Assembly: GCA_950097225.1 (NCBI GenBank)
Contig: CATNCE010000015.1
Coordinates: forward strand, 1-34,608
Length of the DNA stretch: 34,608 nucleotides
From: an uncultured Bacilli bacterium
Lineage (GTDB): Bacteria; Bacillota_I; Bacilli_A; RF39; UBA660
Reading direction: 5' to 3'
Shown here: in pieces, positions 6,128 to 31,024 of the stretch
Numbering within the stretch: the stretch's first letter is position 1
Layout of the letters: the number at the start of each line of letters is the position of its first letter
The notes under the pieces: model-generated
Seen by the model: the letters and a program-made list of their open reading frames with translations, nothing else
The model's database searches: none
Told to the model about the DNA's origin: nothing
Translations under genes and position numbers: made by a program

Positions 6128-7330
6128 TTAATTTATTTTGAATGTTGTATTCTTTTTGCACATTGTATATAACATTCTTAATATTTTTGTTGAACACGCA
6201 GTTAGGCTTTCATAGTAATGTTTGCCTTCTGCTTTTTTTGTTAAATAATAATTATATACTGGATGTTCTGGACATTGGTGACCTAATTTAACTACCATTT
6301 GACTTATATTAAATAATATCCATCTTGCATATTTGTTTCCTCTTTTAGAGATAGCTCCATGAACATTAATACTTTTTCCTGATTGTATAATTGTTGGGTC
6401 TAACCCACAAAAAGCAATTAATTGTTTATGGTTATCAAATCTAGTAATATCTCCAAGTTCTCCAAGTAATTCAGTCGTTAATACTTCTCCGATACCATAA
6501 AACGAACTGATAATATCAAAGTAAGATGACTCTTTTGCTGTTTCAATCATCTTGTCTTTTAACTCATTTATTGTCTTAATGTTTTCTTGTAAAATGCTTG
6601 CCATATCTGATAAGTTTTTAACATCTGAATGATCTTTATCTACTCCTGGATAAGAGTTAAGAGAAATCTCTTTAATTTTATTTGCCAATCTTTTGTAATA
6701 ATAATCATGTCTTGAATTGGTTTTATACAAGTTGTTATATAAAGCATCTATTCTTTTTTCTTTAACAATATAAGCATGAGGAAAAGTTTTTATAAAATTT
6801 AAAGCTGCTTCTTCATAAATTCTACTGCCTTTGAATATTTCCTCAAACTCTGGAAAACAAATATTAATTAGTCTCTTATATCTATTTTTACAACTAACAT
6901 TTAATTGTGTTAGATAAAAATATTGTCTTGTCATTGCTTTTAGATTTGCATATAAATCCTTCTTTGATAAATCATGATATTCTACCTCATTAACAAAAAA
7001 TAACTTGGCTAATCTCATACAATCTTTTGTATCTGTCTTCGTTTTTCTTAAAGTATCATAATTATTTTTAGTAGTTAAACTATTGATTACTAAAGTATTA
7101 AAACCATTTTCTTTAAAATATCTTTCTACTGGCAAATGATAGATTCCTGTTGATTCCATAAATATTGTTAAATCTTCTAATTTTAAACTATCAATCTGAT
7201 TTTTCAATTCATCAAAATCTTTTAAATTATGTTTAATTTCTTTTGGTTCGATTAATACTTCTCCATACTCTGTAGATAACATCACCATACTTTTACATTT
7301 TGCAACATCTACACTTAATACTGCCTTCAT
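6128..7330 (-). CDS. IS110-family transposase (400 aa)
   Basis: This is the DEDD-type transposase/recombinase of IS110 elements, which is guided by a bridge RNA. The N-terminal RuvC-like domain shows D8 (SVDVAK), E59 (MESTGIYH), and D100/D103 (KTKTDTKDC). The C-terminal transposase_20 domain carries FYGIGEVLTTELLGELGDI, LIAFCGLDP and an SGKS segment near residue 311 with the likely catalytic serine, followed by SKRGNKYARWILF. The length of 400 aa is typical and the frame is intact, so the element may still be active. An AAGGAG ribosome binding site lies just upstream of the ATG. Confidence 0.93.
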   Translation of the reverse strand: MKAVLSVDVAKCKSMVMLSTEYGEVLIEPKEIKHNLKDFDELKNQIDSLKLEDLTIFMESTGIYHLPVERYFKENGFNTLVINSLTTKNNYDTLRKTKTDTKDCMRLAKLFFVNEVEYHDLSKKDLYANLKAMTRQYFYLTQLNVSCKNRYKRLINICFPEFEEIFKGSRIYEEAALNFIKTFPHAYIVKEKRIDALYNNLYKTNSRHDYYYKRLANKIKEISLNSYPGVDKDHSDVKNLSDMASILQENIKTINELKDKMIETAKESSYFDIISSFYGIGEVLTTELLGELGDITRFDNHKQLIAFCGLDPTIIQSGKSINVHGAISKRGNKYARWILFNISQMVVKLGHQCPEHPVYNYYLTKKAEGKHYYESLTACSTKILRMLYTMCKKNTTFKIN

Positions 7331-7576
7331 TACTTACTCCTTTCTGAATTTAAGTCTTCTGTTTCCACCATTATTTCATCAAGCTTGTTATATAGATTCC
7401 TTGACCTCACTATCTTAAACTAAATTAATAATAGAAATAAAAGCTGAACTGTCAATTTCATAGATTCTATGACCTCTGTAATTTGATGTTCTCACTTAAA
7501 CTCTTGGTAAATAATTTAACATAAAAAAATAAGATATAAATATTAAATTATTTACATCTTAAAGTATACTTGTAAT
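7331..7576 (-). ncRNA. candidate bridge RNA region of the IS110 element
   Basis: About 245 bp of non-coding DNA lies between the transposase start and the next gene, on the side where IS110-group elements encode their bridge RNA. Two near-identical 17-nt blocks occur on the minus strand, GAGGTCAwrGAATCTAT, at 7476-7460 and 7408-7392; 15 of 17 bases match and the starts are 68 nt apart. One of them forms the hairpin CATAGA-TCTATG. Paired related segments fit an RNA with two guide loops. The exact RNA ends and guide bases are not determined. Confidence 0.35.
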
Positions 7577-7672
7577 TTACCACAATAAATTTATTGCACA
7601 AGCAACAACTATACCTATTAGGATTATTATCCATCCTATTGTTTTTTTATGCTCTTTAAACCATTTTGACAT
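7577..7672 (-). CDS. 31-aa membrane peptide
   Basis: A GGAG ribosome binding site lies 8 nt before the ATG at 7672. The product starts with a basic head (MSKWFKEHKK) followed by one hydrophobic helix (IGWIIILIGIVVACAINLLW), so a tiny single-pass membrane protein. It sits beside the non-coding end of the IS110 element, with about 420 bp of repeat-containing non-coding DNA upstream. Small peptides of this type are often toxins or membrane-complex modulators; no family is recognised. Confidence 0.55.
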   Translation of the reverse strand: MSKWFKEHKKTIGWIIILIGIVVACAINLLW

Positions 7673-7895
7673 ATTTACCACTCCTATCTGTTCGACAAAT
7701 TACTATTTGTATGATAGATTAGCAAAAAATATAATTAATCTATTTGTACACAAATAATAGTTGAACTTATATAAATATTATAATACTTTTCATATCCTTT
7801 TTAAAGTTATTGTGTACATTTCCTTTTAAGAAATTCAAACAGTTTTATAATTTTTTATGTACCAAATCAAGAGTTACTTTTTAGCAGGATAAGTG

Positions 7896-8002
7896 TGTAT
7901 TACAAACAACTCGCCAGTGGCGAGTTTATCCTTAAAATAAAGGGTTTGCCAACTTTTAAATTGTATTACAAAATCTTTTTTGTTTTACTTTTGTATTACA
8001 AA
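7896..8002 (+). repeat. three direct copies of TGTATTACAAA
   Basis: Identical 11-mers lie at 7896-7906, 7962-7972 and 7992-8002, spaced 66 and 30 bp apart. A related TTGTACCAAAA follows near 8035. They are candidate protein-binding sites. Confidence 0.6.
7908..7926. repeat. strong hairpin AACTCGCC-AGT-GGCGAGTT
   Basis: A perfect 8-bp GC-rich stem with a 3-nt loop and no T-run after it on either strand. In an AT-rich region this is conspicuous. It sits 2 nt after the first TGTATTACAAA copy. Confidence 0.65.
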
Positions 8003-8099
8003 TATACCTTTATTTGCATTTGAAAATATACTAATTTGTACCAAAATTTAAGATTTTGAAATAAATTATACAACTCTTGTTGGTACAAAAAGATGTACC

Positions 8100-8927
8100 T
8101 TAAATATCAACATTTATAATATTTATTGGACTAACAGGTACTTCTATTAATCCATAATTAGTTATTTTAAATTTATCAAGGATAGGTATTAGTTTAAAAG
8201 GTTCATTAAAATAATTGCCTTTACTATATTTAAGCATAAACTCTTGATCATTAATTTGCTCTTTCTTTAATTCTTGATAATCAATCGGAAAGTTTAATTG
8301 TAATTTCTTAATATAACTCTTAATTTCTTCTCTAGTCATTGGTGCTGATACTTCAATATTTATAGGCATATCATTAGCTTTTATTTCTTGATTGCTATTA
8401 ATACCACCACTATTAAATATATTAGCATATTCTTCAATGAATGTTTTCTTGAAAGTAATATGTTTTATTTTTATATCCTTATCATTTTTAATAACTTCTA
8501 TAGAATCAATATAACTTGTTATTAATTCTTGTTTTTCTGATACAGATAATTTGTCCCATTTAGCTTGGAAATTTAATTCGTAAAAAGGGTTTATAAAACA
8601 TTTAATACTTTCTATATCTCTTTTAAGCATTATATCTTCAAATGTGAAATTGTATTGTTCTAATTCTTGTTCCTCTTTAATTTTCTTTTCAACATCAATA
8701 ATTCTATTTTCTAAATACGTTTTATCTTCTTTATATTCTGATAAATTAATAATTTCATTTAAGTAAGCATCCTTAAGTCTTATTATTTTATCTTTTAAAA
8801 TATATAGTTCTTTAGAAAGTAATTCATTCGTATTTTCGAGTTTTTTCTTTAAAAGTGGAGCAAAGTGTTTTTTAACAATCGAATCATACTCAATTATGTC
8901 TGTTATTTCATTGAGGTTATAATATGT
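8100..8927 (-). pseudogene. large serine recombinase, C-terminal remnant
   Basis: The open frame runs from the stop at 8100 back to 8927, where it meets a TAG. Its first half is a long coiled coil (LENTNELLSKELYILKDKIIRLKD, ENRIIDVEKKIKEEQELEQY). Its second half matches the conserved end of Bacillota large serine recombinases (AKWDKLSVSEKQELITSYIDSIEVI). The N-terminal catalytic serine domain and zinc ribbon are missing, so it cannot recombine DNA. A start at 8630 would give a 176-aa product, but it has no clear ribosome binding site. The truncation point coincides with the start of the divergent membrane/zinc-ribbon gene at 8924, which suggests a deletion or insertion junction there. Confidence 0.75.
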
Positions 8928-19895: not shown

Positions 19896-20744
19896 TTAGC
19901 TACCCATTTCGAATGTAAAACCATTGTTTTCAACAGTAAACCCTTGTTTACTAAATACCATGCCATTATCTAGAGTAATGCTCGTTGCGTCCTCAGTATA
20001 AGAGTGTAAACCATGCACACCCCCGTCATAATAATATGCAAGTTCATATTTTATTGCGCCATTTATTAATAGCAACTTAGAAGAAGCATCATCTTGGTAT
20101 TGATAGTATTTCATTTCAGTATCAGCCATTTCTAATTCTATGCCATCACAGAATAGATAATTGTCATTTACGGTAAATAAACGATAGTTTCCATCTGTAC
20201 TATTTAAACCTAAACTACTATTCTTTAAATCATATGCACCTTCTTCTTTGTGTATGATTCCTGCATCATTTTTTGTAAATAAAATATAATGATAGCTAAA
20301 ATCTTTTTGAGTTGGAGCTAGTATTAAAACCATGTTATCATTTTGAAACTTACGAGCTATTTCACGATTATATACATATTTAGGAAAAGGATTGGCTTTA
20401 GTCGTTGTCGTAGTTGTCGTCGTATATTTTGCATCACTCGTAGTAATATATTTACTTATAAGACGATAGCCCAAGTATGATAAGAAACCAGCTAAAGCAA
20501 ATAACGTTATGACAATTATAAAGCTTATGATGGGATTGTGTTTTTTTACTTTAATGGCATTGTTAACATCACGAGCTTGATTAGTGTTAATGGCTTGGTT
20601 AGCTTGAATTGTAGCACTTACGATGTTATCGCGCTCACGGTTTAACATATTATCATTTTGATTCACTGTAACTTTTGATAAGTCAACTTTTTCTGGTGTA
20701 ACATAGTTATTGTTATTATTATTTTGATTATTGTTATTATTCAT
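19896..20744 (-). CDS. membrane protein with Asn-rich head and extracellular beta domain (282 aa)
   Basis: The start at 20744 follows GGAGTG. The N-terminus is Asn-rich and repetitive (NNNNQNNNNNN), then a polar stretch to a TM helix at about 74-95 (ISFIIVITLFALAGFLSYLGY). A threonine run (eight T) links it to an extracellular beta-rich domain of about 165 residues, which I do not recognise. The charge pattern (KVKKHN before the TM) puts the N-terminus inside. The gene overlaps the membrane gene before it by 8 nt, so the two are coupled, and it lies at the end of the surface block. Confidence 0.7.
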   Translation of the reverse strand: MNNNNNQNNNNNNYVTPEKVDLSKVTVNQNDNMLNRERDNIVSATIQANQAINTNQARDVNNAIKVKKHNPIISFIIVITLFALAGFLSYLGYRLISKYITTSDAKYTTTTTTTTKANPFPKYVYNREIARKFQNDNMVLILAPTQKDFSYHYILFTKNDAGIIHKEEGAYDLKNSSLGLNSTDGNYRLFTVNDNYLFCDGIELEMADTEMKYYQYQDDASSKLLLINGAIKYELAYYYDGGVHGLHSYTEDATSITLDNGMVFSKQGFTVENNGFTFEMGS

Positions 20745-21318
20745 TATTAGCACTCCTTTTTATTTTAATTAATGCTTTAGTAAAATCATTTATAATGCAT
20801 GAATATTGATTATTTTCTTTATATACTACATTAGAATTTGTATAAAATGTATATATATCATTTTCCTCACTTTTAAATGATAAATATAGTAAGTTATTAT
20901 CTATTTTATCAATCGCAATTAGTGTTAAATTTAAATTCTTTCTTTTAAAGAAATAGTAATTGATAAAAATATATAAACAAGTAATAAGTATACCTATTGG
21001 TAAATTGTAAGTGTTTATCCCAAATTTTATAGAGTTAGCAATAAAAGCTATTCCAGCGGGAGCTAAAATTGAAAATGATATATACCCATAGATGGCACTA
21101 AAGCCATTATCAAGGTTATTTATAACAGATGATGCTGGATAACTTTTGATGATAAGACGCATTATGAAGTAGCTAAGCACGATGCTTACAAATATTTCTA
21201 AGCTAAAATATGTTATATTAAATTCATTAATAGTTACAAAGTTAATTAACGTCATACCATAAAGTGATACACATATACAAATTAATGGTATTAATAATAA
21301 TAGAAATAATATACTCAT
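20737..21318 (-). CDS. polytopic membrane protein, unknown (193 aa)
   Basis: The start at 21318 follows AAGGATG. Four or five hydrophobic segments occupy about residues 1-22, 37-57, 78-98 and 107-124, followed by a basic loop and a soluble beta-rich tail (about 130-193, NLTLIAIDKIDNNLLYLSFK). I do not recognise the family. Its stop overlaps the start of the Asn-rich membrane protein, so the two are likely to be partners. Confidence 0.65.
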   Translation of the reverse strand: MSILFLLLLIPLICICVSLYGMTLINFVTINEFNITYFSLEIFVSIVLSYFIMRLIIKSYPASSVINNLDNGFSAIYGYISFSILAPAGIAFIANSIKFGINTYNLPIGILITCLYIFINYYFFKRKNLNLTLIAIDKIDNNLLYLSFKSEENDIYTFYTNSNVVYKENNQYSCIINDFTKALIKIKRSANNE

Positions 21319-21342
21319 AGCTAGCATCCTTTACTATAAATA

Positions 21343-21348: not shown

Positions 21349-21371
21349 TCATAAAAAAGTTTATTTATATC

Positions 21372-21411
21372 AAAATAAAAGCATACATTTTTTTATGTAC
21401 ACTTTTATTTT
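21372..21411 (-). terminator. long hairpin ending the surface operon
   Basis: AAAATAAAAG (21372-21381) and CTTTTATTTT (21402-21411) form a 10-bp stem, continued by CATACAT/ATGTACA pairs around a T-run. It lies 12 nt after the ASCH gene. The T tail is weak, so some read-through into the next two membrane genes is possible. Confidence 0.6.
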
Positions 21412-21422
21412 ATAACTTCATA

Positions 21423-21821
21423 TTATTTATTTTGTGGATACTCAAAATCCCAAAGGCTTAACTTTCCCTTACAAGTAATAGGATCTATTTCTTCTGGATT
21501 TTCCATTTTAAAAGCATAGCCTTGCCAATCTTGATGAGTTATTACACTATGGTATATGCGCTCATCTTGATCTTTTAAAATTTTTCTAAAAGTATCGTCA
21601 ACTTTGATACAATCAGTGATAGTAACTTTTCCTATTATACATCCTGATGGATATTCTAAATTAAGATATTTAAATCTTTCTAAAGCTTTTTTATCAACAC
21701 CAAGTCCTGCGTGGATGAGAATATCCCCACGATATTTAGTACACCATGTTCGAAATTCATACTTTTTATAGCCCTTGATGATTAAAGTTGCAAAGGGTTG
21801 TTTAATAGTTATTACTTTCAT
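21423..21821 (-). CDS. ASCH-domain protein (132 aa)
   Basis: The ASCH fold (PUA-like, RNA/nucleotide-binding) is shown by the N-terminal KVITIKQPFATLIIKGYKKYEFRTW, then RGDILIHAG and a central GCIIGKVTITDCI. The length fits a stand-alone ASCH domain. Such proteins are linked to RNA modification or hydrolysis of modified nucleosides. Its start follows the stop of the cohesin/cadherin-like gene by 4 nt, so it is the last gene of the surface operon, an odd partner for secreted proteins. Confidence 0.85.
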   Translation of the reverse strand: MKVITIKQPFATLIIKGYKKYEFRTWCTKYRGDILIHAGLGVDKKALERFKYLNLEYPSGCIIGKVTITDCIKVDDTFRKILKDQDERIYHSVITHQDWQGYAFKMENPEEIDPITCKGKLSLWDFEYPQNK

Positions 21822-21825
21822 TTAA

Positions 21826-23466
21826 TTAGCCTCTCTTGATGATTATTTGTTCATTTGCTTGATTTGGGGGTGTAGTATTGACTGGCTTTACAACTTTTTT
21901 AACCAAACGAACTTGGTTTTGTTGAGGCGCAGGTGTTGGATTTTGATTAGTAGCAACTGCTGATGTTGCTACTGCAACAGGATTAGTTGGTTGATGAGTA
22001 CTTACTACTTGTTTTGGAACAACCCGATTGGTAGGAGATACGATATTACCCGAATTAGCGATATTACCTGGAGTTATAACGTTTTGACCATTAACAACTA
22101 CTTGATTAGTACGATTAACAGCATCACGATTAGCATCGGCAATAGCTTGTGTTTTTTGATCATTATGAGCTTTTTTTAGCTTAATGCGAGTAATTAATAT
22201 ATAGGCATTAGTACCAATAAAACCGGCAGATAATAGCCCAATAGCGATTAGCATTATCAGAGAATTATAATTTCTTTTAACGTGAATTACATATTCTGAT
22301 GATGCTTTATCACCATATTGAACTTTAATATAGATATTATTATCGCCCTTAGTTAATGATATTAAGCCATCACCCATAACTGAGTTATCGACATTATCAG
22401 ATTGAGCAATAACGAAAAGCTCTTTTACAGTTGTTGGGACATATATCGTATATTCTTTTACATCTTTATTAAAGTTAAAATCGTAGCCTACAACTTTTAA
22501 ACTAGCTAAATACGTATTATAGATATTAGTATCATCAGGTCTAGTTATAACAACTTGAACAGTAAGTGACTGATTATATTCGTTGCGAATAACTAATTCA
22601 ACAACATTTTTACCTACTGCTAACGTTCTCGTTCCTTCACCAATAATAGCAATGTTGGCAGCAGCAGTTGCGGTTACTTCGACACTTTCAGTATCATAAT
22701 TAACTGTTGCGTAATACTTGCGATTTTGATAAGTAACAGGGAAATCCCCTACTTTAACACTATCTAAGTATAAACCAGGAATTGGTGATTGATGGGGATC
22801 GTTTGGATCAAATATAGGCTGAGTTGTCGTATTAGGTTGGTTTGGATCAAACGTATTTGGCTGAGTTGTACTAGTCTTGTAAGGATCATTATTGGTATTT
22901 GGCTGAGTTGTATTAGTCGTTGGTTTTCCTCCTGTAGGTGGAACCGTTGGCTTTTGAGTTGGACTCGTTGGGTTCGTTGGATTTGTAGGCTTTTGGGTTG
23001 GATTTGTTGGGTTCGTTGGGTTTGTAGGTAATGGATTAACAGTGAATGACTTTTGTTTAGCACCAATATTAATCTCATTATAAGCCTCATCAGCAATCTT
23101 GACACTAGTAAGCTTTAATGTTGCTGTTCCTGGAGATGTTGCACGAATATTAACTATCGCGATAGTAAAGCTTCCTGTTAAGTCTCTAGAAGATACATAA
23201 AGAAGACTGCTTGGCGTATTTTCTTGAGCATTCCATCCGTTTCCTGGAGTAAGAGATTCAATTGTAGCTCCTCCGCTCATGGAAAGTTGAATATCGGCAG
23301 CTGATGCTCCTCCTGTTATAGCATTTCCAGTTATAACACATGTCGTATTCTTTCCTACTTGAACATTATTACAGGTAATGTTAACAGAGAAAGAACCTGC
23401 ATCAACATAAAATGGGCATACAATTAATAAAAATATTCCAAATAGAATTAACTTATATTTTTTCAT
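21826..23466 (-). CDS. membrane-anchored cohesin-like/cadherin-like surface protein (546 aa)
   Basis: Order: signal peptide (1-22); cohesin-like beta sandwich (about 24-145, from AGSFSVNITCNNVQVGKN to the IGAKQKSFTV end); a Pro/Thr/Asn linker with TNPTNP and TQP repeats (146-230); two cadherin-like beta sandwich domains (about 231-312 and 315-400, the second showing YLASLKV, YTIYVPTTV, KGDNNIYIKV); a TM helix (about 403-427); and a 115-residue cytoplasmic tail rich in Q, N and P. It should display the cohesin-like domain away from the membrane. The long inner tail is unusual for a simple anchor and could bind a partner inside. It starts with a GGAG site and overlaps the 171-aa receptor gene by 14 nt. 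The cohesin call rests on fold pattern, not on a database match. Confidence 0.75.
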   Translation of the reverse strand: MKKYKLILFGIFLLIVCPFYVDAGSFSVNITCNNVQVGKNTTCVITGNAITGGASAADIQLSMSGGATIESLTPGNGWNAQENTPSSLLYVSSRDLTGSFTIAIVNIRATSPGTATLKLTSVKIADEAYNEINIGAKQKSFTVNPLPTNPTNPTNPTQKPTNPTNPTSPTQKPTVPPTGGKPTTNTTQPNTNNDPYKTSTTQPNTFDPNQPNTTTQPIFDPNDPHQSPIPGLYLDSVKVGDFPVTYQNRKYYATVNYDTESVEVTATAAANIAIIGEGTRTLAVGKNVVELVIRNEYNQSLTVQVVITRPDDTNIYNTYLASLKVVGYDFNFNKDVKEYTIYVPTTVKELFVIAQSDNVDNSVMGDGLISLTKGDNNIYIKVQYGDKASSEYVIHVKRNYNSLIMLIAIGLLSAGFIGTNAYILITRIKLKKAHNDQKTQAIADANRDAVNRTNQVVVNGQNVITPGNIANSGNIVSPTNRVVPKQVVSTHQPTNPVAVATSAVATNQNPTPAPQQNQVRLVKKVVKPVNTTPPNQANEQIIIKRG

Positions 23467-23968
23467 GTTTGTTACTCCTTCTTTTTATTATCCAGATAAT
23501 ACTTATTATTCCTATTAATATAATAACACATGGAATAATAAATTTTATGATACTTCGTTCCTTTTTAGGAATATTGACACTTGTTGAGATGAGATGCTCT
23601 TGAAAAAAGCTATCATATACTTTTAGATCTTTAATAATTATATCACTTTCTTTAAGCTCTTTAGATGATTTTAGGGTTATTGTACCTAACTTCTTAAATC
23701 CTGTGTAATCTTTTTCTGAATAAAGAGAAAACCACTTATCTTCCATGCTTCCTTCCCAAGATCCATCAACACTTGTTGCCGTTATTTTGGCATACTCAGG
23801 CACTTCATAGTGAAAATCAATTGCACTTATGGGATAGTCAAATAAAGAGGCAAATGTACAGACAAATTCTTCTTTATCACCTGTACATTGGATACTTACC
23901 TCTTCTTTGGCTAAAACACTTATTGGTGCTAATAGTAGTATTATTAATAGTAAAATCTTATATTTCAT
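23453..23968 (-). CDS. small membrane-anchored cohesin-like protein (171 aa)
   Basis: The start at 23968 has GAGG 8 nt upstream; the ATG two codons earlier is too close to it. Order: signal peptide (MKYKILLLIILLLAPISVLA), a single beta-sandwich ectodomain of about 120 residues (EVSIQCTGDKEEFVCTF, AISAIDFHYEVPEY-type cohesin strands, LGTITLKSSKEL), a TM helix at about 138-160, and a basic tail (KRRSNKHEKI). The strand order and the GTITLK strand resemble cohesin modules. It overlaps the giant dockerin gene by 11 nt at its start and the 546-aa gene by 14 nt at its end, so the three are co-translated. It is probably the short-arm receptor or a chaperone for the dockerin. Confidence 0.7.
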   Translation of the reverse strand: MKYKILLLIILLLAPISVLAKEEVSIQCTGDKEEFVCTFASLFDYPISAIDFHYEVPEYAKITATSVDGSWEGSMEDKWFSLYSEKDYTGFKKLGTITLKSSKELKESDIIIKDLKVYDSFFQEHLISTSVNIPKKERSIIKFIIPCVIILIGIISIIWIIKRRSNKHEKI

Positions 23969-26900
23969 TGTCATTTCCTCGATAGAAACGATAAAGCTTA
24001 GCTACATCTCCACTGGTTACATTGTCGCGTTTTAAAATACGAGCTGCTCTTAAGATATTTTCATCTGGAGTTATGATATTACGAACAATTCGCACTAGGT
24101 AAGCAAAATCTCCAGTGTCAATCGCACCATTACCATTTAAGTCCCCAATGACAATTATGGTATAAGTACTATTACCACTTATAAGTTTATAATTAGTTCC
24201 AACAACTTCGGTAGTAGAAGTCACATCTTCGTTCTTGTTGTTAACAATCTTGTAGTTAGGTTGGATATTTTGGATATTACTGATAAATACTTCTTTTCTT
24301 AGACGTAATTCAGTCATTTTATTGACAAAGATAATTTTATTTTCATTATCAATATCATAAATTGGCGATTTTAATGCCTCAGTAACATTGACAACGAAAG
24401 TCTTAAAATACTCTTTATTATGAACGGTTATAGTCGTCTCTCCCTTGGATTTAGCTATAATGTTATTATTTTCAACAACAGCAACATCAGGATTAGATGA
24501 TGTGTATTTCATATTTTTATTTGTAGCATCTTCAGGACTTATATATAATTCAAATGCTTTTACGTCTCCTGGATCTAACGTTATAGCGCCGGTTAGATCT
24601 TGTTTATCGATTATAATTGAAAGATCAGTTATCCTTTTATATTCGAGAACTTCTCTAGTTATTGATGCATATGGAAGTCCCTTTATACAAAGAGCAAATT
24701 CGACATTACCATATGAAACATCATCATAATCAAACGTTATTTGCTTGTATTCTTCAACTAAATTGTAATTAGATTTTATTTCTGTAATTACACGTCCATT
24801 ATTAATTATTTTAATCGAATAATCATTATCAATTGGATGATTAGATGAGAAATTTATAGTTCCTAGTACACCAATATAATCATAAAGATTATCCGTATTA
24901 TTAATTTTTTCTTTAGTTACAATGCTAGATGATGAGAATATATTTACTCTATAACTATTTTGGTCAATTGTAAAACGCAAGCGATTAGAGATGTTATAGT
25001 TATTCAAAACGTCTCCTAATAATGCAGCAACATAGTAAGTACCTACTCTAGCTTTGTATGGTAAAATCTTAATACGATAGGTGTCATTAGAGACCTTTAT
25101 AACATCAAAGCTATTGGCAACATTATCACTAGAAATACTAGAATAAACTATATTATTATAGTTATCATAGACGCGGAATTTTAGGTTGTTAAGATCGGCA
25201 GCTGTTAGATTAGTTGTATCAACCTTAAATTCATAATATTGATTATCATTTTCAGCGATTATTGGGCTTGTTGAAGCCTTTATATCTTTAATCATGATTT
25301 CTTTATATTCGCCATATAAATCTATTTCGGTAGTATTAGTAGTAATATTTTGCGTAGAAGCATCGCGATATTCAAGATGAACTACGTATCTTCCTGCTTC
25401 TAGATTTTGAGTAGTTGCTGTGTATTCAAGACGAACAGCATTTCCTTGTTTAGTAATCTTAAACTTATTAGTAACATCAGTGTTATCAGTTATTGATGTT
25501 ACCTTAACTGTCATATTATTTACTAAGATATTATAGTTGCTACGGAAATTCACAATGTATGTTCCTCCATAATTATTATGGATAAGTCCGTCTTTGGTCT
25601 TTGATTCGATATCAACATTAGTAATTTCAATTTTACGTTCATAATCAGCCATAGTAAAGTCAACTGTCTTATTTAATACGAATGTATTTTTAGCATATGA
25701 CATATAGACACGATAAGTACCTGGTTTTAAATTGTTATTAGGTTCATATCTTAGACTAACTTGGAACTCATTGGCATCTGGAGTTGTACTCATAAATGTC
25801 TTTGTAAATTCACTTGTTACATCTTTATTTTCAAAGTCTTTGACGATAATATTGTCAGTAAATTCTGTTTTTACTAATGTATTGTCAACTAAATTACCAT
25901 TAAACATTTCATTGGTAATAAGATTTAAAATTATTTCACCACCCTGTTCGCGATTTGGAACCGCTGGAGATGGATCGTATGTTACTTCTTTTACTCGATA
26001 ATCAAAGTATATTTCACTAAAATTGAATACTTGATGATCTTCAATTACACGACCATCGGCATCTTGATAACTAACCATTACTAAGACGTCTCCTGCCGGA
26101 ATTTGTTTATTACTATTATATTCTAATTCTAGTTTATGTTCATTTCTAAATTTGTCAGAACTATAAATAAAATAGCTATTGTAATCGATGTTTTGATTAT
26201 TATTAGTAATATTTACGGTTGCCTCTTCATAGCCGATTCCTAAAACAGTTACAGGTATTATAATCGTAGCATCTTTATTAGTGAATAAAGATTGGCTTAT
26301 TTCATTGTCACTTAGTTTAGTAGCGATAGCAGCATCCCCAAACTTAATTTCGGCATATTCTGCGACGATATTAAAGTTATATACGGCATAGTCACGAGAG
26401 GAATAATAAATAACTAATTGATATGCTCCTTTGTCTAGTATACCTTGAGCATTAGCTTTTAATTTTAAATCAATATTGATGTTATCATGAGTTATAACTT
26501 CAAAGTAGTTATTGAAATTAATTGCCGTATCTGGTGAACATATAGATGCATTAGCACAATCTTGAGTAATAATAAACTGCGCATTTTCTTCGTGAATAGT
26601 ATCTAAGGTTACATCGATATGCGTATCAGGAATATTGCTATAAAATCCTGGAGCCTTGTGAGTTTTACCAGAATCATCTATAAGACCATAGATATCGGCA
26701 TCGAGAATTTCCCATCCGAAGGTCTCTTTCATAGAAGCCATTTCATATTCAAATTCCTGGCCATTATAAATGACTTTTAAATAGAAGCTTCCGTCGAATA
26801 TTCGATCAATTTTATCGATATTTAAGTGTAAGAAAATATTTCCATTGTAACTATCTTTTATTACTTCTGGGTCTTTTTCTTCCCAACGATCAGTTATAGT

Positions 26901-29900
26901 GAACATGCGATCAGTTGATGATTCACTTGATACGTCGATGTAACGACGAGTCTCAGGATCAAAATACTGAACGATATATTGAATTTTACGAACACCATCT
27001 ATTGGCTCTAAATCTTCATAGTTAATATATTGAGAAGTTATGCTGCGTTCAATATACATTTCATTGGCTTTGGCGTGTCCTTTTTCAATTCCCATGTGGA
27101 AACTGAATGTGTCGCGTTCGACATTAAATATAAAATTATCAGTTAATAATTCCCCGTTTGGCTCTTGATAACTTATAGTTAAAGTATATTTTCCAACTGG
27201 AGCCAAGAGATTTGATGTATCTTCAAAGTAATTCATTAAAGTCATCGTATATAAATTGTTTTCAGCATCGAGAATTACGTTATCTTCGGTGTAAGAGAAC
27301 AAAATATGATCATTAACATCGGAGAATGTTTTATTCTCTTTATTCCAAGTTAAGACATCTGGTACGCCCTCATCAGTTTCATGAGTCATAGAGAAATTAA
27401 AATTATCAACATTAGCTATATAGTATCCTTTAACAGGAATGGTTAAACTAGATGCAAAGTTGTGATAGAAAGAGGTCTTTGTTATGGAACTATTATCGAC
27501 ACTAAGTCCGTAGTAATTTCCTGATAGCTCAAACTCTTCTATAACATCATCCATATCGTATCCATTATTACTATAGCTAAACACAATACGATATGTTCCT
27601 TTGCGAATAAGATCCATATTAGTCACCATGTGAATATTAGAACTAGTTAGTAAGTTATTTACCGATGTTAATTCACTTAATTCACGAGTTGGACGAATAT
27701 TATCTGTTATTGTGAAGTGATCATTGGCATCAATCCAATTATTACCATCTTTAAACTGAATTTTATATGAGAAATTCTCTAAATTATACATATATCCTAA
27801 TCTAAAGTTGATATCTACATAACTTTCAACATTTGTATAAGCTTTATCAGCACTACTTATTGAGTTAGATAAGGCAAAGTTATCGATAAGAACATCATAG
27901 TTAGGAACATCATAGTGAAGTGAAGTCATGTGAATATTACGCATCCACATCTCGGGATATACATTACGGTCAATAGCAGCATCATCCGAGTCATCATTAT
28001 AAATATATCCAACTCCCTTAGCAGCATTGTGAGTTACATAAATGTAATAAAATCCTGGATTAACTTCGGTCTTTGGCAAGATAGTTATCGTTCTTTTAGG
28101 ATCAGGAGAGGTACGATTTACAGTAATATAGAATTGATCAGTTACCTCATTACCTACTAATGGCTCGCCGTTTTCTTCAGTTATTTGATAACGCCCTCTT
28201 ATTCCTCCTAGAAGATAATTATTGTCATGATCAAAGGCGAATGTGGTAGCAATAAGACGATACATTTCTGAATAAGTCTGTTTAAAACTATCATTCATTA
28301 CTTTAACGATTGGATTTGGATTTCCGTTAACCGTGTATTCAACGGATAAGTCAGTAGCATCAGCGGAAGCAGCAAACGTACGAATAACATGCATGCTAAA
28401 GTTATCACTTATAATGTTACCATTAGCGTCTAAATTGTAATATTTTAACTTAGTTGCACCTGGAGTGTAATCACTTATGTACTGATATGCATCGGCATAC
28501 TTAGTAGCAAATTCGCTTATTGGCAGGGTTTGCCCCGTTTGATAATTTACTCCGCCATCGAGACTCAGATCGTAATAGACTGTGTTGTTGTAAATACGAT
28601 TAATTTTAGCAATGTAATCTACTTCGTCAAAGAAGAAAATATTTCCGTCTTCATCTTCGTCAGCACGACGATCGAAGATACGATATCCGATAGAATCTTT
28701 TTCAATATTGTCTATATCTACTTTCGTTTTCTTCATGTAAAATCCAACATAGTATTCATACTTTTTATTACTATTTGGATAATTAGTCATTAAAATGTCA
28801 CTAGGATCATTAGAATGATTATCATATTCACTATATACATAGTAGTCGATTTTTCCATCAGATAGTGTAAATTTAGAAGATGAATCATATTTTCCAAACC
28901 CATAGTATAGAGTATAATCCCCAATGTAGTAGTCTTGATTAGATAAATACTTAATAGTTACATAGATATACCCATCAGCAATTTCACTATAATCAAGTTC
29001 TAGGGCAAAGTTTGAATCGTAAACTGTTTCTCCTAGATTCTCAACAAGAATTTGGGGAGCGCGACCTATTGGTACATCTTTTACTAGTTGCACTTGTAGA
29101 TTTGCAACTTCTTCTTGAGTATACGCTTCAAAGTAAAGTTTTAATTTAAGTTCTCCACCTGTGATGGATAATGGTACTAAATCAGGCTGTTTTACAATAT
29201 TTTTAACAACCTTAGTTCCGATTCCTGAGTCATGATAGAATATATCGCCTGTTTCTTCATCACGAGTGTATTGATTAGACATTAAAGTACCATAGGCAGA
29301 AGGATTAGCAGCTTTAAAATCATCTACTTCTTCTTTTATTAGAGTATCACTTGAACGACCTTTATAATAGTAAACATAGTATTTTTCAACCTCTATAGTT
29401 TCAGGTGGTTTTGGTTCACCTTCACCTTCTCCTTCGCCAGATCCACCTTCTCCACCACCAGGGTCAGTCCCTTCAGGAGTGGGTGGTTCGGTTTCGCCAG
29501 GATTTTCTGGATCAGTTGTTTCACCTGGATTTTCTGGATCGGTTTCTCCCTCAGGGTTATCCGGATCAGTAGGTTCTGGCTCAATAGGAATACTTACAAT
29601 TTCTTTTGTGTATTTAACAATGTAAATAGAATTATTGTAGTTTACGGCAACCTTATTTTCATTACGATTGTCTGTAGTTATTTTAGAATATGCCAAATTT
29701 GGATATGTTTCTTTTAATTCTTGCTCGGAATATTTTACTTCTTCATATGTACCATTGTTATTTTCACGAACAATGTATTTTTTTACACCTGTTGTATTCT
29801 CGGTTCCTACGACATCTATATCATAATTTAAATGTTGATAAGATATCTGATAACGATTAGCCTTACGTTGAGCTTGTAACTCAGTAAAAATAGAACGCTT

Positions 29901-30974
29901 ATCAGTAATTGTAAAAGTAAACTTTCTGGTATAGTTTGGCACTAGGTCACTAGAAAAGTCTTCTTGATCACGCAATGTAAGTGTAAATGTATACGTTCCT
30001 TTAGGAGTATAATTATCATTAACATCGACGAAATCACCATTTTCTAAGATAATTTCTCTTTTAATATTTTTAAATGAAATTATGTCATTACGAACATCAA
30101 AAATAAAGGCATCAGTATAGTCAATACCATTTTTCTTAATGGCGTAATCAAAATCTTGGAAAGTCAAATTCTCTGGTAATTTTTGAGAGAATTCTACTTG
30201 CCAAGTATTTTCTAAGTTTTCAGGCACGGTTTCATTATCAGAATCATAAATAATGTCAAAATTAAATTCTTTTTTCAAGACGTCAAAGGTTTTGGTTACT
30301 GAGTTTGAATTATTATAATTTATTTTTATACGATAACGTCCAGCTGTAACTTTAGCTTTATTAGTAATAGTTACATTCATTGTACCAATATTTTCTTCAT
30401 CAACTTCAAAAATTCTTTCAATGTTAAAAAGTTCTGATGCATCCTCACCTAGACTGTCGATAAGTTCAATATCGATACGATCTGCCTCAGTTTGTGCAAC
30501 ATTTTTAATATTGCTAATATCAAACGTTATTTTTAATGGATCTTCAACACGAATCGGATCTGGTTCAATAGTTAATGGTCCTACACTTAGAGATATTGGA
30601 TTAGTAGTGGTAGTATTTATAGTTTCACAAGTTTCATTTTTGGATAAGTAGTTGGTAGATATATATTTTTCACTGGAATTACTAATTTTAGCCCAGTCGC
30701 CCTCTTCAGTCATACAATAAACTTTAACTTCTGTACATTTATCAACTGATGCAATAATGTTAGAATCATTAATAATTGTAGACGAACGAATACGTACCCC
30801 ATCAGCAGTTACATAGTAAATCTCTGGCTCGCCAACAACGCATGAAGAAGCTGCATGTTTCGAGTTTGCAATTGTACGAATGCTTTTTTCCAAGCCGCTA
30901 AAACGAGTTTGAACTAAAAGAAAAATTCCGACAATTAAAATAACGGCCAATACTTTTTGAACGTACTTCTTCAT
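23958..30974 (-). CDS. giant dockerin-bearing surface protein (2338 aa)
   Basis: Order: a hydrophobic N-terminal segment (7-22) that anchors or exports the chain; an SH3b domain (about 50-112, DGVRIRSS, GDWAKIS) that may bind cell wall; beta-sandwich-like domains to about 460; a Pro/Glu/Gly linker (about 461-525) made of PENPGET and GEGEGEG runs; then a long array of repeated beta-sandwich-like units, each showing a GTYRI/GKYTL-type strand; a Big2-like domain (about 2115-2200, LDPGDVKAFEL, YTSSNPDVAVV); a pre-dockerin domain (about 2205-2272); and a C-terminal dockerin. The first dockerin loop, DLNGNGAIDTGD, has all calcium ligands. The second (RDNVTSGD) is degenerate. The promoter and start are clear (TATAAT 24 bp upstream). 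The chain is probably an adhesin or scaffold held by the cohesin-like receptors. Confidence 0.82.
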   Translation of the reverse strand: MKKYVQKVLAVILIVGIFLLVQTRFSGLEKSIRTIANSKHAASSCVVGEPEIYYVTADGVRIRSSTIINDSNIIASVDKCTEVKVYCMTEEGDWAKISNSSEKYISTNYLSKNETCETINTTTTNPISLSVGPLTIEPDPIRVEDPLKITFDISNIKNVAQTEADRIDIELIDSLGEDASELFNIERIFEVDEENIGTMNVTITNKAKVTAGRYRIKINYNNSNSVTKTFDVLKKEFNFDIIYDSDNETVPENLENTWQVEFSQKLPENLTFQDFDYAIKKNGIDYTDAFIFDVRNDIISFKNIKREIILENGDFVDVNDNYTPKGTYTFTLTLRDQEDFSSDLVPNYTRKFTFTITDKRSIFTELQAQRKANRYQISYQHLNYDIDVVGTENTTGVKKYIVRENNNGTYEEVKYSEQELKETYPNLAYSKITTDNRNENKVAVNYNNSIYIVKYTKEIVSIPIEPEPTDPDNPEGETDPENPGETTDPENPGETEPPTPEGTDPGGGEGGSGEGEGEGEPKPPETIEVEKYYVYYYKGRSSDTLIKEEVDDFKAANPSAYGTLMSNQYTRDEETGDIFYHDSGIGTKVVKNIVKQPDLVPLSITGGELKLKLYFEAYTQEEVANLQVQLVKDVPIGRAPQILVENLGETVYDSNFALELDYSEIADGYIYVTIKYLSNQDYYIGDYTLYYGFGKYDSSSKFTLSDGKIDYYVYSEYDNHSNDPSDILMTNYPNSNKKYEYYVGFYMKKTKVDIDNIEKDSIGYRIFDRRADEDEDGNIFFFDEVDYIAKINRIYNNTVYYDLSLDGGVNYQTGQTLPISEFATKYADAYQYISDYTPGATKLKYYNLDANGNIISDNFSMHVIRTFAASADATDLSVEYTVNGNPNPIVKVMNDSFKQTYSEMYRLIATTFAFDHDNNYLLGGIRGRYQITEENGEPLVGNEVTDQFYITVNRTSPDPKRTITILPKTEVNPGFYYIYVTHNAAKGVGYIYNDDSDDAAIDRNVYPEMWMRNIHMTSLHYDVPNYDVLIDNFALSNSISSADKAYTNVESYVDINFRLGYMYNLENFSYKIQFKDGNNWIDANDHFTITDNIRPTRELSELTSVNNLLTSSNIHMVTNMDLIRKGTYRIVFSYSNNGYDMDDVIEEFELSGNYYGLSVDNSSITKTSFYHNFASSLTIPVKGYYIANVDNFNFSMTHETDEGVPDVLTWNKENKTFSDVNDHILFSYTEDNVILDAENNLYTMTLMNYFEDTSNLLAPVGKYTLTISYQEPNGELLTDNFIFNVERDTFSFHMGIEKGHAKANEMYIERSITSQYINYEDLEPIDGVRKIQYIVQYFDPETRRYIDVSSESSTDRMFTITDRWEEKDPEVIKDSYNGNIFLHLNIDKIDRIFDGSFYLKVIYNGQEFEYEMASMKETFGWEILDADIYGLIDDSGKTHKAPGFYSNIPDTHIDVTLDTIHEENAQFIITQDCANASICSPDTAINFNNYFEVITHDNINIDLKLKANAQGILDKGAYQLVIYYSSRDYAVYNFNIVAEYAEIKFGDAAIATKLSDNEISQSLFTNKDATIIIPVTVLGIGYEEATVNITNNNQNIDYNSYFIYSSDKFRNEHKLELEYNSNKQIPAGDVLVMVSYQDADGRVIEDHQVFNFSEIYFDYRVKEVTYDPSPAVPNREQGGEIILNLITNEMFNGNLVDNTLVKTEFTDNIIVKDFENKDVTSEFTKTFMSTTPDANEFQVSLRYEPNNNLKPGTYRVYMSYAKNTFVLNKTVDFTMADYERKIEITNVDIESKTKDGLIHNNYGGTYIVNFRSNYNILVNNMTVKVTSITDNTDVTNKFKITKQGNAVRLEYTATTQNLEAGRYVVHLEYRDASTQNITTNTTEIDLYGEYKEIMIKDIKASTSPIIAENDNQYYEFKVDTTNLTAADLNNLKFRVYDNYNNIVYSSISSDNVANSFDVIKVSNDTYRIKILPYKARVGTYYVAALLGDVLNNYNISNRLRFTIDQNSYRVNIFSSSSIVTKEKINNTDNLYDYIGVLGTINFSSNHPIDNDYSIKIINNGRVITEIKSNYNLVEEYKQITFDYDDVSYGNVEFALCIKGLPYASITREVLEYKRITDLSIIIDKQDLTGAITLDPGDVKAFELYISPEDATNKNMKYTSSNPDVAVVENNNIIAKSKGETTITVHNKEYFKTFVVNVTEALKSPIYDIDNENKIIFVNKMTELRLRKEVFISNIQNIQPNYKIVNNKNEDVTSTTEVVGTNYKLISGNSTYTIIVIGDLNGNGAIDTGDFAYLVRIVRNIITPDENILRAARILKRDNVTSGDVAKLYRFYRGNDNEI

Positions 30975-30995: not shown

Positions 30996-31024
30996 ATTAT
31001 ACCATCACAAGCATTTTATGTAAA
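30996..31024 (-). promoter_or_regulatory. promoter of the surface operon
   Basis: On the minus strand TTTACA (31024-31019), a 17-bp spacer and a perfect TATAAT (31001-30996) lie upstream of the 2338-aa gene. An AGGATGTGG site follows before the ATG. Confidence 0.75.

Follow-up and report, generated by a model that had tools for sequence, protein, structure and literature searches.

A giant dockerin protein encoded with two membrane cohesin receptors as a probable non-cellulosomal surface-attachment unit in an uncultured RF39 bacterium

The stretch of DNA analysed (the window) was the whole contig C15 (GenBank CATNCE010000015.1; 34,608 nt) of the 1.61-Mb draft genome of an uncultured Bacilli bacterium (RF39; UBA660). 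Three successive minus-strand open reading frames (ORFs) of the window encode a giant protein with a C-terminal dockerin, a short membrane receptor and a long membrane receptor, both with a cohesin-type ectodomain (Table 1). Judged from sequence comparison and structure models, the three genes likely constitute a dedicated non-cellulosomal dockerin-cohesin unit for surface attachment. A preliminary description of the window had proposed one operon of a 2338-aa dockerin protein and two single-pass membrane proteins, and the ORFs and their order agreed with it. It had given gene overlaps of 11 and 14 nt; the 14-nt overlap between the receptor genes was confirmed, while the giant and the short receptor overlapped by 11 nt counted from the second ATG and by 17 nt counted from the first.

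The profile of three orthologous giant C-termini matched solved cohesin-bound dockerins first and over the full length (2ccl_B and 1ohz_B, E 1.5e-7), which bore out the dockerin proposed earlier despite a Pfam score below threshold in the search of the genome itself (18.1 bits; cut-off 22.9). The first repeat carried a canonical calcium loop in all three orthologues (DLNGNGAIDTGD in the window), and the helix of the degenerate second repeat (DV[AS]KL[YF]) was kept in all three. The structure model consisted of Big_2, a linking module and three helices at the dockerin positions. The predicted fold of the Big_2 region matched Big_2 and S-layer immunoglobulin-like (Ig) domains (Z about 11); the comparison of the C-terminus with the PDB was dominated by the Ig domain and hardly probed the linking module and the dockerin. 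An LPXTG-type sorting signal was not found on the giant, whose C-terminus is the dockerin.

The ectodomain of the short receptor was predicted together with five relatives. In the PDB comparison, cohesins came first and nearly throughout, the best match being the non-cellulosomal cohesin 2xdh of Archaeoglobus fulgidus (Z 14.6, 2.7 A over 115 residues); the ectodomain is thus a cohesin by its predicted fold. For the N-terminal domain of the long receptor, the cohesin call comes from homology only. With signal peptides removed, its profile matched the short cohesin (E about 1e-9) and the cohesins of the family (E 1.4e-5), and the short-type model found the long receptor (E 2.4e-10); no profile match was obtained between this domain and the cadherin-like domains. 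The cohesin-like ectodomains of the preliminary description were therefore supported for both receptors, and the two cadherin-like domains it had placed in the long one were recovered, the second by PF12733 and the first by profile.

The order giant, short receptor, long receptor was kept in G021 (L027/L028, where the giant is divided between the ends of two contigs) and in G043 (L029), that is, in three genomes of two genera, which argues against a chance arrangement. A scan of 84,980 genomes with exact patterns, whose count is a floor, found two loci with close relatives of the long receptor, both of them already known.

A dockerin gene ahead of a cohesin gene was common in the family sample of 145 genomes from 144 genera, in which Pfam matches were taken at E 0.01. 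Cohesins were matched in 81 and dockerins in 110 of the 145 genomes. In 50 of the genomes, 52 of the 112 cohesin matches lay 90-158 bp downstream of a dockerin match on the same strand. Of the 27 top-scoring dockerin genes that could be evaluated, 26 were followed at a distance of 0-24 bp by a gene whose product begins with a signal peptide and a cohesin-like region. The commonest dockerin ligand resembled the glucosaminidase SagB (identified on one member, with a consensus common to the group). A pair of this type was present on contig C28 of the window's own genome (L001/L030), where a SagB-like glucosaminidase with a dockerin is followed by a cohesin-cadherin-transmembrane gene; its dockerin protein has a linking module at the same position as that of the giant. 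The receptor model A5 also found members in other families of the class, and in loci from four of these (f5, f13, f16 and f19) a dockerin gene lay directly ahead of a receptor gene.

Large dockerin proteins were repeatedly found beside one, two or three receptors (L095, L096, L115, L127, L159, L160 and L166). The dockerin proteins and their receptors were of 2779 aa with 742 aa, 532 aa and an incomplete third (L096), 2247 aa with 715 and at least 555 aa (L115), 1299 aa with 372 and 383 aa (L160), 686 aa with 376 and 389 aa (L159), and 2121 aa with 208 aa (L166). These giants were not all homologous to that of the window; those of L095 and L096 were made of PF12733 repeats. The window locus is one case of a widespread dockerin-before-cohesin arrangement. 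Proteins that combine cohesin, membrane segment and dockerin in a single chain also exist, and such gene fusion hints at dockerin-cohesin pairing.

Cognate adjacent modules should diverge together, and this was examined by distance correlation. In 17 glucosaminidase-type pairs, dockerin and cohesin distances were correlated (r 0.74), and the partial correlation after removal of glucosaminidase, linking-module and cadherin distances was 0.73 (p 0.0003). The controls gave -0.06 (linking module-cohesin) and 0.04 (dockerin-signal peptide). Plain DNA linkage does not account for the correlation in this set, because the linking module and the signal peptide are equally near and did not correlate. 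A run with 20 pairs gave 0.68 (partial 0.61). In the window's own class (10 pairs), the dockerin-cohesin correlation was 0.73 (p 0.0004) and the controls were 0.48 and 0.33.

Motif classes, defined after inspection of the sequences, followed the same pairing. Dockerins of KLY type preceded Cys-type cohesins in 6/6 scored pairs, those of QKHIL/KNYIM type in at most 2/32 (Fisher 1e-5, on rows that are related and not independent). By eye, L160, L161, L163 and L166 obeyed the rule. The window's own genome, G021 and G043 each held both classes, and each class went with its own type of cohesin, which speaks against lineage alone as the cause. In the own genome, the window's unit combines a KLY-type dockerin with a Cys-type cohesin, in contrast to the C28 pair, which has a QKNIL-type dockerin and a Cys-free cohesin; since these recognition codes differ, the two pairs are probably insulated from each other and probably do not cross-react. 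Pairing of ligand and receptors, flagged as inference in the preliminary description, is supported by the family-wide gene adjacency and the specific co-divergence, both of which suggest that the dockerin pairs with the adjacent cohesin.

In the mechanism proposed here, the giant would be exported, and the cohesin heads of both co-translated receptors would bind its C-terminal dockerin in a calcium-dependent manner, a reading that the co-divergence supports indirectly. The chain of about 2300 residues would thereby be kept on the outside of the membrane by non-covalent binding, with no covalent link to the wall. The short receptor would lie close to the membrane, and the long receptor would reach further by its two cadherin-like domains; its conserved cytoplasmic tail could, speculatively, couple attachment to the cell interior. 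In the best reading, the giant would be a long surface fibre on the membrane held by cohesin receptors. Surface display is its likely role, and adhesion is only plausible.

Several points weigh against this reading. In all three orthologues, the calcium ligands of the second dockerin repeat are gone (ILKRDNVTSGDVAKLYRFYRG in the window). Model confidence was low for the dockerin (predicted local distance difference test, pLDDT, 52-58). The co-divergence contrast was weaker in the window's class, which had only 10 pairs and somewhat correlated controls. No signal-peptidase-like site was seen near the hydrophobic segment of the giant, which makes this segment a possible N-terminal membrane anchor. 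Finally, sortases were found in 129 of the 145 family genomes, with five matches in the own genome, and a second attachment system beside them would need a purpose of its own. A role of the system as a replacement for sortases was rejected on the same counts.

The missing cleavage site allows a different topology, in which the N-terminal hydrophobic segment anchors the giant and the dockerin binds receptors either of a neighbouring cell, giving adhesion between cells, or of its own cell, giving a closed loop. All three orthologues have a spacer of about 20 residues between the hydrophobic (h-) region and any A-x-A-like site; the receptors and the C28 dockerin protein differ in having cleavage-like sites directly after it. 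N-terminal membrane segments without a clear site were also found in the related dockerin proteins of L161 and L166. However, the giants of the same layout in L095, L096 and L115 have ordinary signal peptides, and the hydrophobic stretch is only 14-16 residues long, so this topology, the main alternative, is considered unlikely.

The dockerin and the receptors could also be adjacent without interacting, the ectodomains being generic beta-sandwiches of cohesin fold and the half-degenerate dockerin no longer binding. The window's modules do miss the Pfam cut-offs for cohesin and dockerin, and one calcium loop is lost. When the C-terminus was compared with type I dockerins, a full-length match to known dockerins was found and two calcium-binding repeats were not; because the second loop is degenerate in all three orthologues, the sequence marks it as an atypical dockerin in which one loop is intact, and not as a type I dockerin of the canonical form. 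In the hidden Markov model search that the preliminary description had suggested, neither receptor of the window matched the Pfam cohesin family PF00963. The orthologous short receptor of L028 reached 16.8 bits with PF00963 (cut-off 24.1), and the PF00963 miss reflects limited sensitivity and says nothing on fold. Against a loss of interaction stand the specific co-divergence of dockerin and adjacent cohesin, the conservation of the degenerate repeat's helix across genomes, and a predicted fold of the short ectodomain that matches cohesins rather than any sandwich. Adjacency without binding is therefore quite improbable.

Cellulosomes are typified by dockerins and cohesins, and the joint occurrence of the two is commonly so read (PMC12997984), but a reduced or vestigial cellulosome-like system whose receptors mainly recruit degradative enzymes is very improbable, for the operon has no glycoside hydrolase, the PF00963 search of the own genome returned two single-domain matches and no scaffoldin of several cohesins, an absence that is not absolute at an assembly completeness of 92%, and the genome's PF00404 matches (E up to 1) were the SagB-like peptidoglycan glucosaminidase, the giant, two prophage proteins and one fusion protein, none of them a dockerin-bearing polysaccharide-degrading enzyme. 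The preliminary description was thus supported in that the operon holds no glycoside hydrolase and looks unlike a cellulosome; a multi-cohesin scaffoldin is likewise absent from the operon. Beyond what it had described, the rest of the genome holds a second, differently coded pair with an enzyme, and prophage and fusion dockerins.

Table 1. Positions of the genes, domains and signals of the dockerin-cohesin unit in the window, and of the second pair of the same genome
Feature	Position	Strand	Content or basis
Giant dockerin protein, 2338 aa	23958..30974	-	Hydrophobic N-terminal segment, SH3b-like region, long body, Big_2, linking module, dockerin
Big_2 Ig-like domain, giant aa 2133-2188	24411..24578	-	Pfam E 1.4e-5, above cut-off
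Linking ('X'-like) module, giant aa ~2205-2274	24153..24362	-	Predicted beta-helix-beta, pLDDT ~67-90
C-terminal dockerin, giant aa 2275-2338	23961..24152	-	Pfam, profile, predicted structure
Short receptor, 173 aa	23453..23974	-	Signal peptide, cohesin, single transmembrane helix, short tail
Cohesin ectodomain of short receptor	23555..23908	-	AlphaFold2 pLDDT 86.1; conserved Cys pair, W-[EQ]-G motif
Transmembrane helix of short receptor (approximate)	23486..23548	-	Sequence
Long receptor, 546 aa	21826..23466	-	Signal peptide, cohesin, Pro/Thr linker, two cadherin-like domains, transmembrane helix, cytoplasmic tail of ~120 aa
Cohesin domain of long receptor, aa 24-147	23026..23397	-	Profile homology
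First cadherin-like domain, long receptor aa 236-313	22528..22761	-	Profile match to PF12733-type domains, E ~3e-9
Second cadherin-like domain, long receptor aa 320-398	22273..22509	-	PF12733 E 3.5e-5, 24.6 bits (cut-off 24.2)
Transmembrane helix of long receptor (approximate)	22186..22260	-	Sequence
Cytoplasmic tail of long receptor	21829..22185	-	Motif [IV]-N-G-[QK]-[SN]-x-[VI] ... V-x-P-T common to three orthologues
Promoter-like site	30996..31024	-	TTTACA-17-TATAAT, TG ahead of second hexamer, ~22 nt 5' of the giant's ATG
ASCH-domain gene	21423..21821	-	Pfam; starts 4 nt 3' of long receptor
Intrinsic terminator hairpin	21370..21412	-	A+T-rich, 18-bp stem, 3' of ASCH gene
C28 pair	L030:8162-9910 and 6845-8152 (G000:C28)		Family-wide core pair: dockerin glucosaminidase and cohesin-cadherin-transmembrane gene

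In the rest of the giant, the long body had no Pfam match, and SH3_3 was called by Pfam in the L029 orthologue only, not in the window's protein. The giant is acidic (15% D+E, 9% K+R) and probably rich in beta-sandwiches; an attempt to count repeats with a simple strand motif gave only six matches with no regular period. Beside the C28 pair, L030:10020-16490 encodes a 2156-aa protein with many GYTFAGWY-type repeats, which looks like another giant surface protein.

The promoter-like site ahead of the giant matched the consensus at 11/12 positions and was the best of the scanned region; it is a consensus match only, and the total of such sites was about the shuffle mean. The terminator hairpin had a z of -5.3, and 0/200 shuffles were as strong. 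Since this strong hairpin comes after the ASCH gene, the transcription unit probably comprises the giant, the short receptor, the long receptor and the ASCH gene, so that the operon of three genes described before stands and is extended by a probable fourth. The ASCH gene was missing from the orthologous locus L028 of G021 and is therefore dispensable for the dockerin-cohesin unit. On the 3' side of the terminator, window positions 19896-21327 hold two genes for membrane proteins (196 and 285 aa) with no family match; as homologues directly follow the long receptor in L028, they may belong to the system.

Dockerin motifs were also seen in prophages. The C11 prophage of the own genome (G000) encodes a 1254-aa tail protein (L031:7025-10789) with an S74 chaperone near its end and a dockerin-like insert, DANNDGKLDALDLLIVQKIID. 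The product of the next gene (L004:1417-1614) is a peptide of 65 aa that contains DVNGDGEVNALDLLIVQKYIL and has a membrane segment at its N-terminus; this gene precedes holin-like and endolysin-like genes. The dockerin motif of this prophage resembles that of the host's C28 dockerin, not that of the giant, and it is possible that the prophage dockerin uses a host cohesin as receptor. In a second prophage-like region (G071:C6), a 749-aa tail-type protein encoded shortly 3' of the tape-measure gene (L124:832-3081) has a C-terminal dockerin motif, DLNNDGEVDSADLLLMRQKIL. No relatives of the phage tail dockerin protein were found among phage records and viral contigs, which is a weak test.

Other arrangements of the modules were observed as well. 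In the single-chain proteins of L032:8151-10496 (G000:C7), L098:4637-13300, L099:8842-17487 and L100:2-6505, a cohesin at the N-terminus is followed by two membrane segments and these by a dockerin-type motif and a large ectodomain; that of L098 also matches Peptidase_M26_N, the N-terminal region only of this family. The L161:3154-4800 protein (G140), whose gene sits between those of a dockerin protein and a plain receptor, has an N-terminal membrane segment, a region resembling Cys-type cohesins and a dockerin of its own at the C-terminus, and is possibly a chained adaptor. A pilin-like protein (L117:2218-3198, G003:C4; N-terminus FTLIELLAVIVILAIIGL) has three tandem dockerin motifs.

Non-cellulosomal cohesin and dockerin modules are known from Archaeoglobus fulgidus (cohesin 2xdh) and from the GH84 and GH33 enzymes of Clostridium perfringens. 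Both are alike in their use outside cellulosomes, and the former is the best structural match of the short ectodomain; the latter join enzymes pairwise, whereas the window would pair a non-enzymatic giant with membrane receptors. Cellulosomal type II anchoring (SdbA-like surface proteins) is similar in that it uses the same two modules, a cell-surface cohesin holds the dockerin of a large extracellular protein and a linking module precedes the dockerin. It differs in that the receptors here are single-pass membrane proteins, not SLH- or sortase-anchored, that ligand and receptors share one operon, and that no scaffoldin, carbohydrate-binding module or dockerin-bearing polysaccharidase was found. 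The family-wide glucosaminidase pair shares the dockerin gene directly ahead of a membrane cohesin gene, but its ligand resembles a peptidoglycan hydrolase and its motif class is another. Dockerin and cohesin proteins of ANME archaea (PMC9012536) and a giant dockerin ORF of Omnitrophota (PMC10066038) have been described as surface proteins with dockerins, with attachment or cell-cell interaction proposed; the available parts of these two accounts describe no operon pairing with membrane cohesin receptors. In the open-access literature, no account was found of dockerin genes encoded together with membrane cohesins for these bacteria. Non-cellulosomal modules are thus already known, and the operon-encoded giant ligand with two membrane cohesin receptors appears to be new as far as that literature shows.

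The members of the class are mostly uncultured gut bacteria. Tentatively, and with somewhat more doubt than confidence, a general modular mode of attachment may be proposed for the class: many secreted dockerin proteins would have one or more membrane cohesin receptors of their own encoded beside them, several insulated codes would coexist in a genome, the giants would be membrane-held fibres, and some phages would exploit the codes by tail dockerins. From the gene order, the cognate partner can be read off for dozens of natural dockerin-cohesin pairs that are probably insulated, which would be useful for specificity studies and as orthogonal parts. Dockerins and cohesins would here be dedicated ligand and receptor pairs for fastening surface proteins to the membrane, in genomes with sortases as well, and this suggests how bacteria with reduced genomes retain their giant surface proteins. 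Across the class, a connection familiar chiefly from machines that degrade cellulose appears to keep ordinary surface proteins on the cell.

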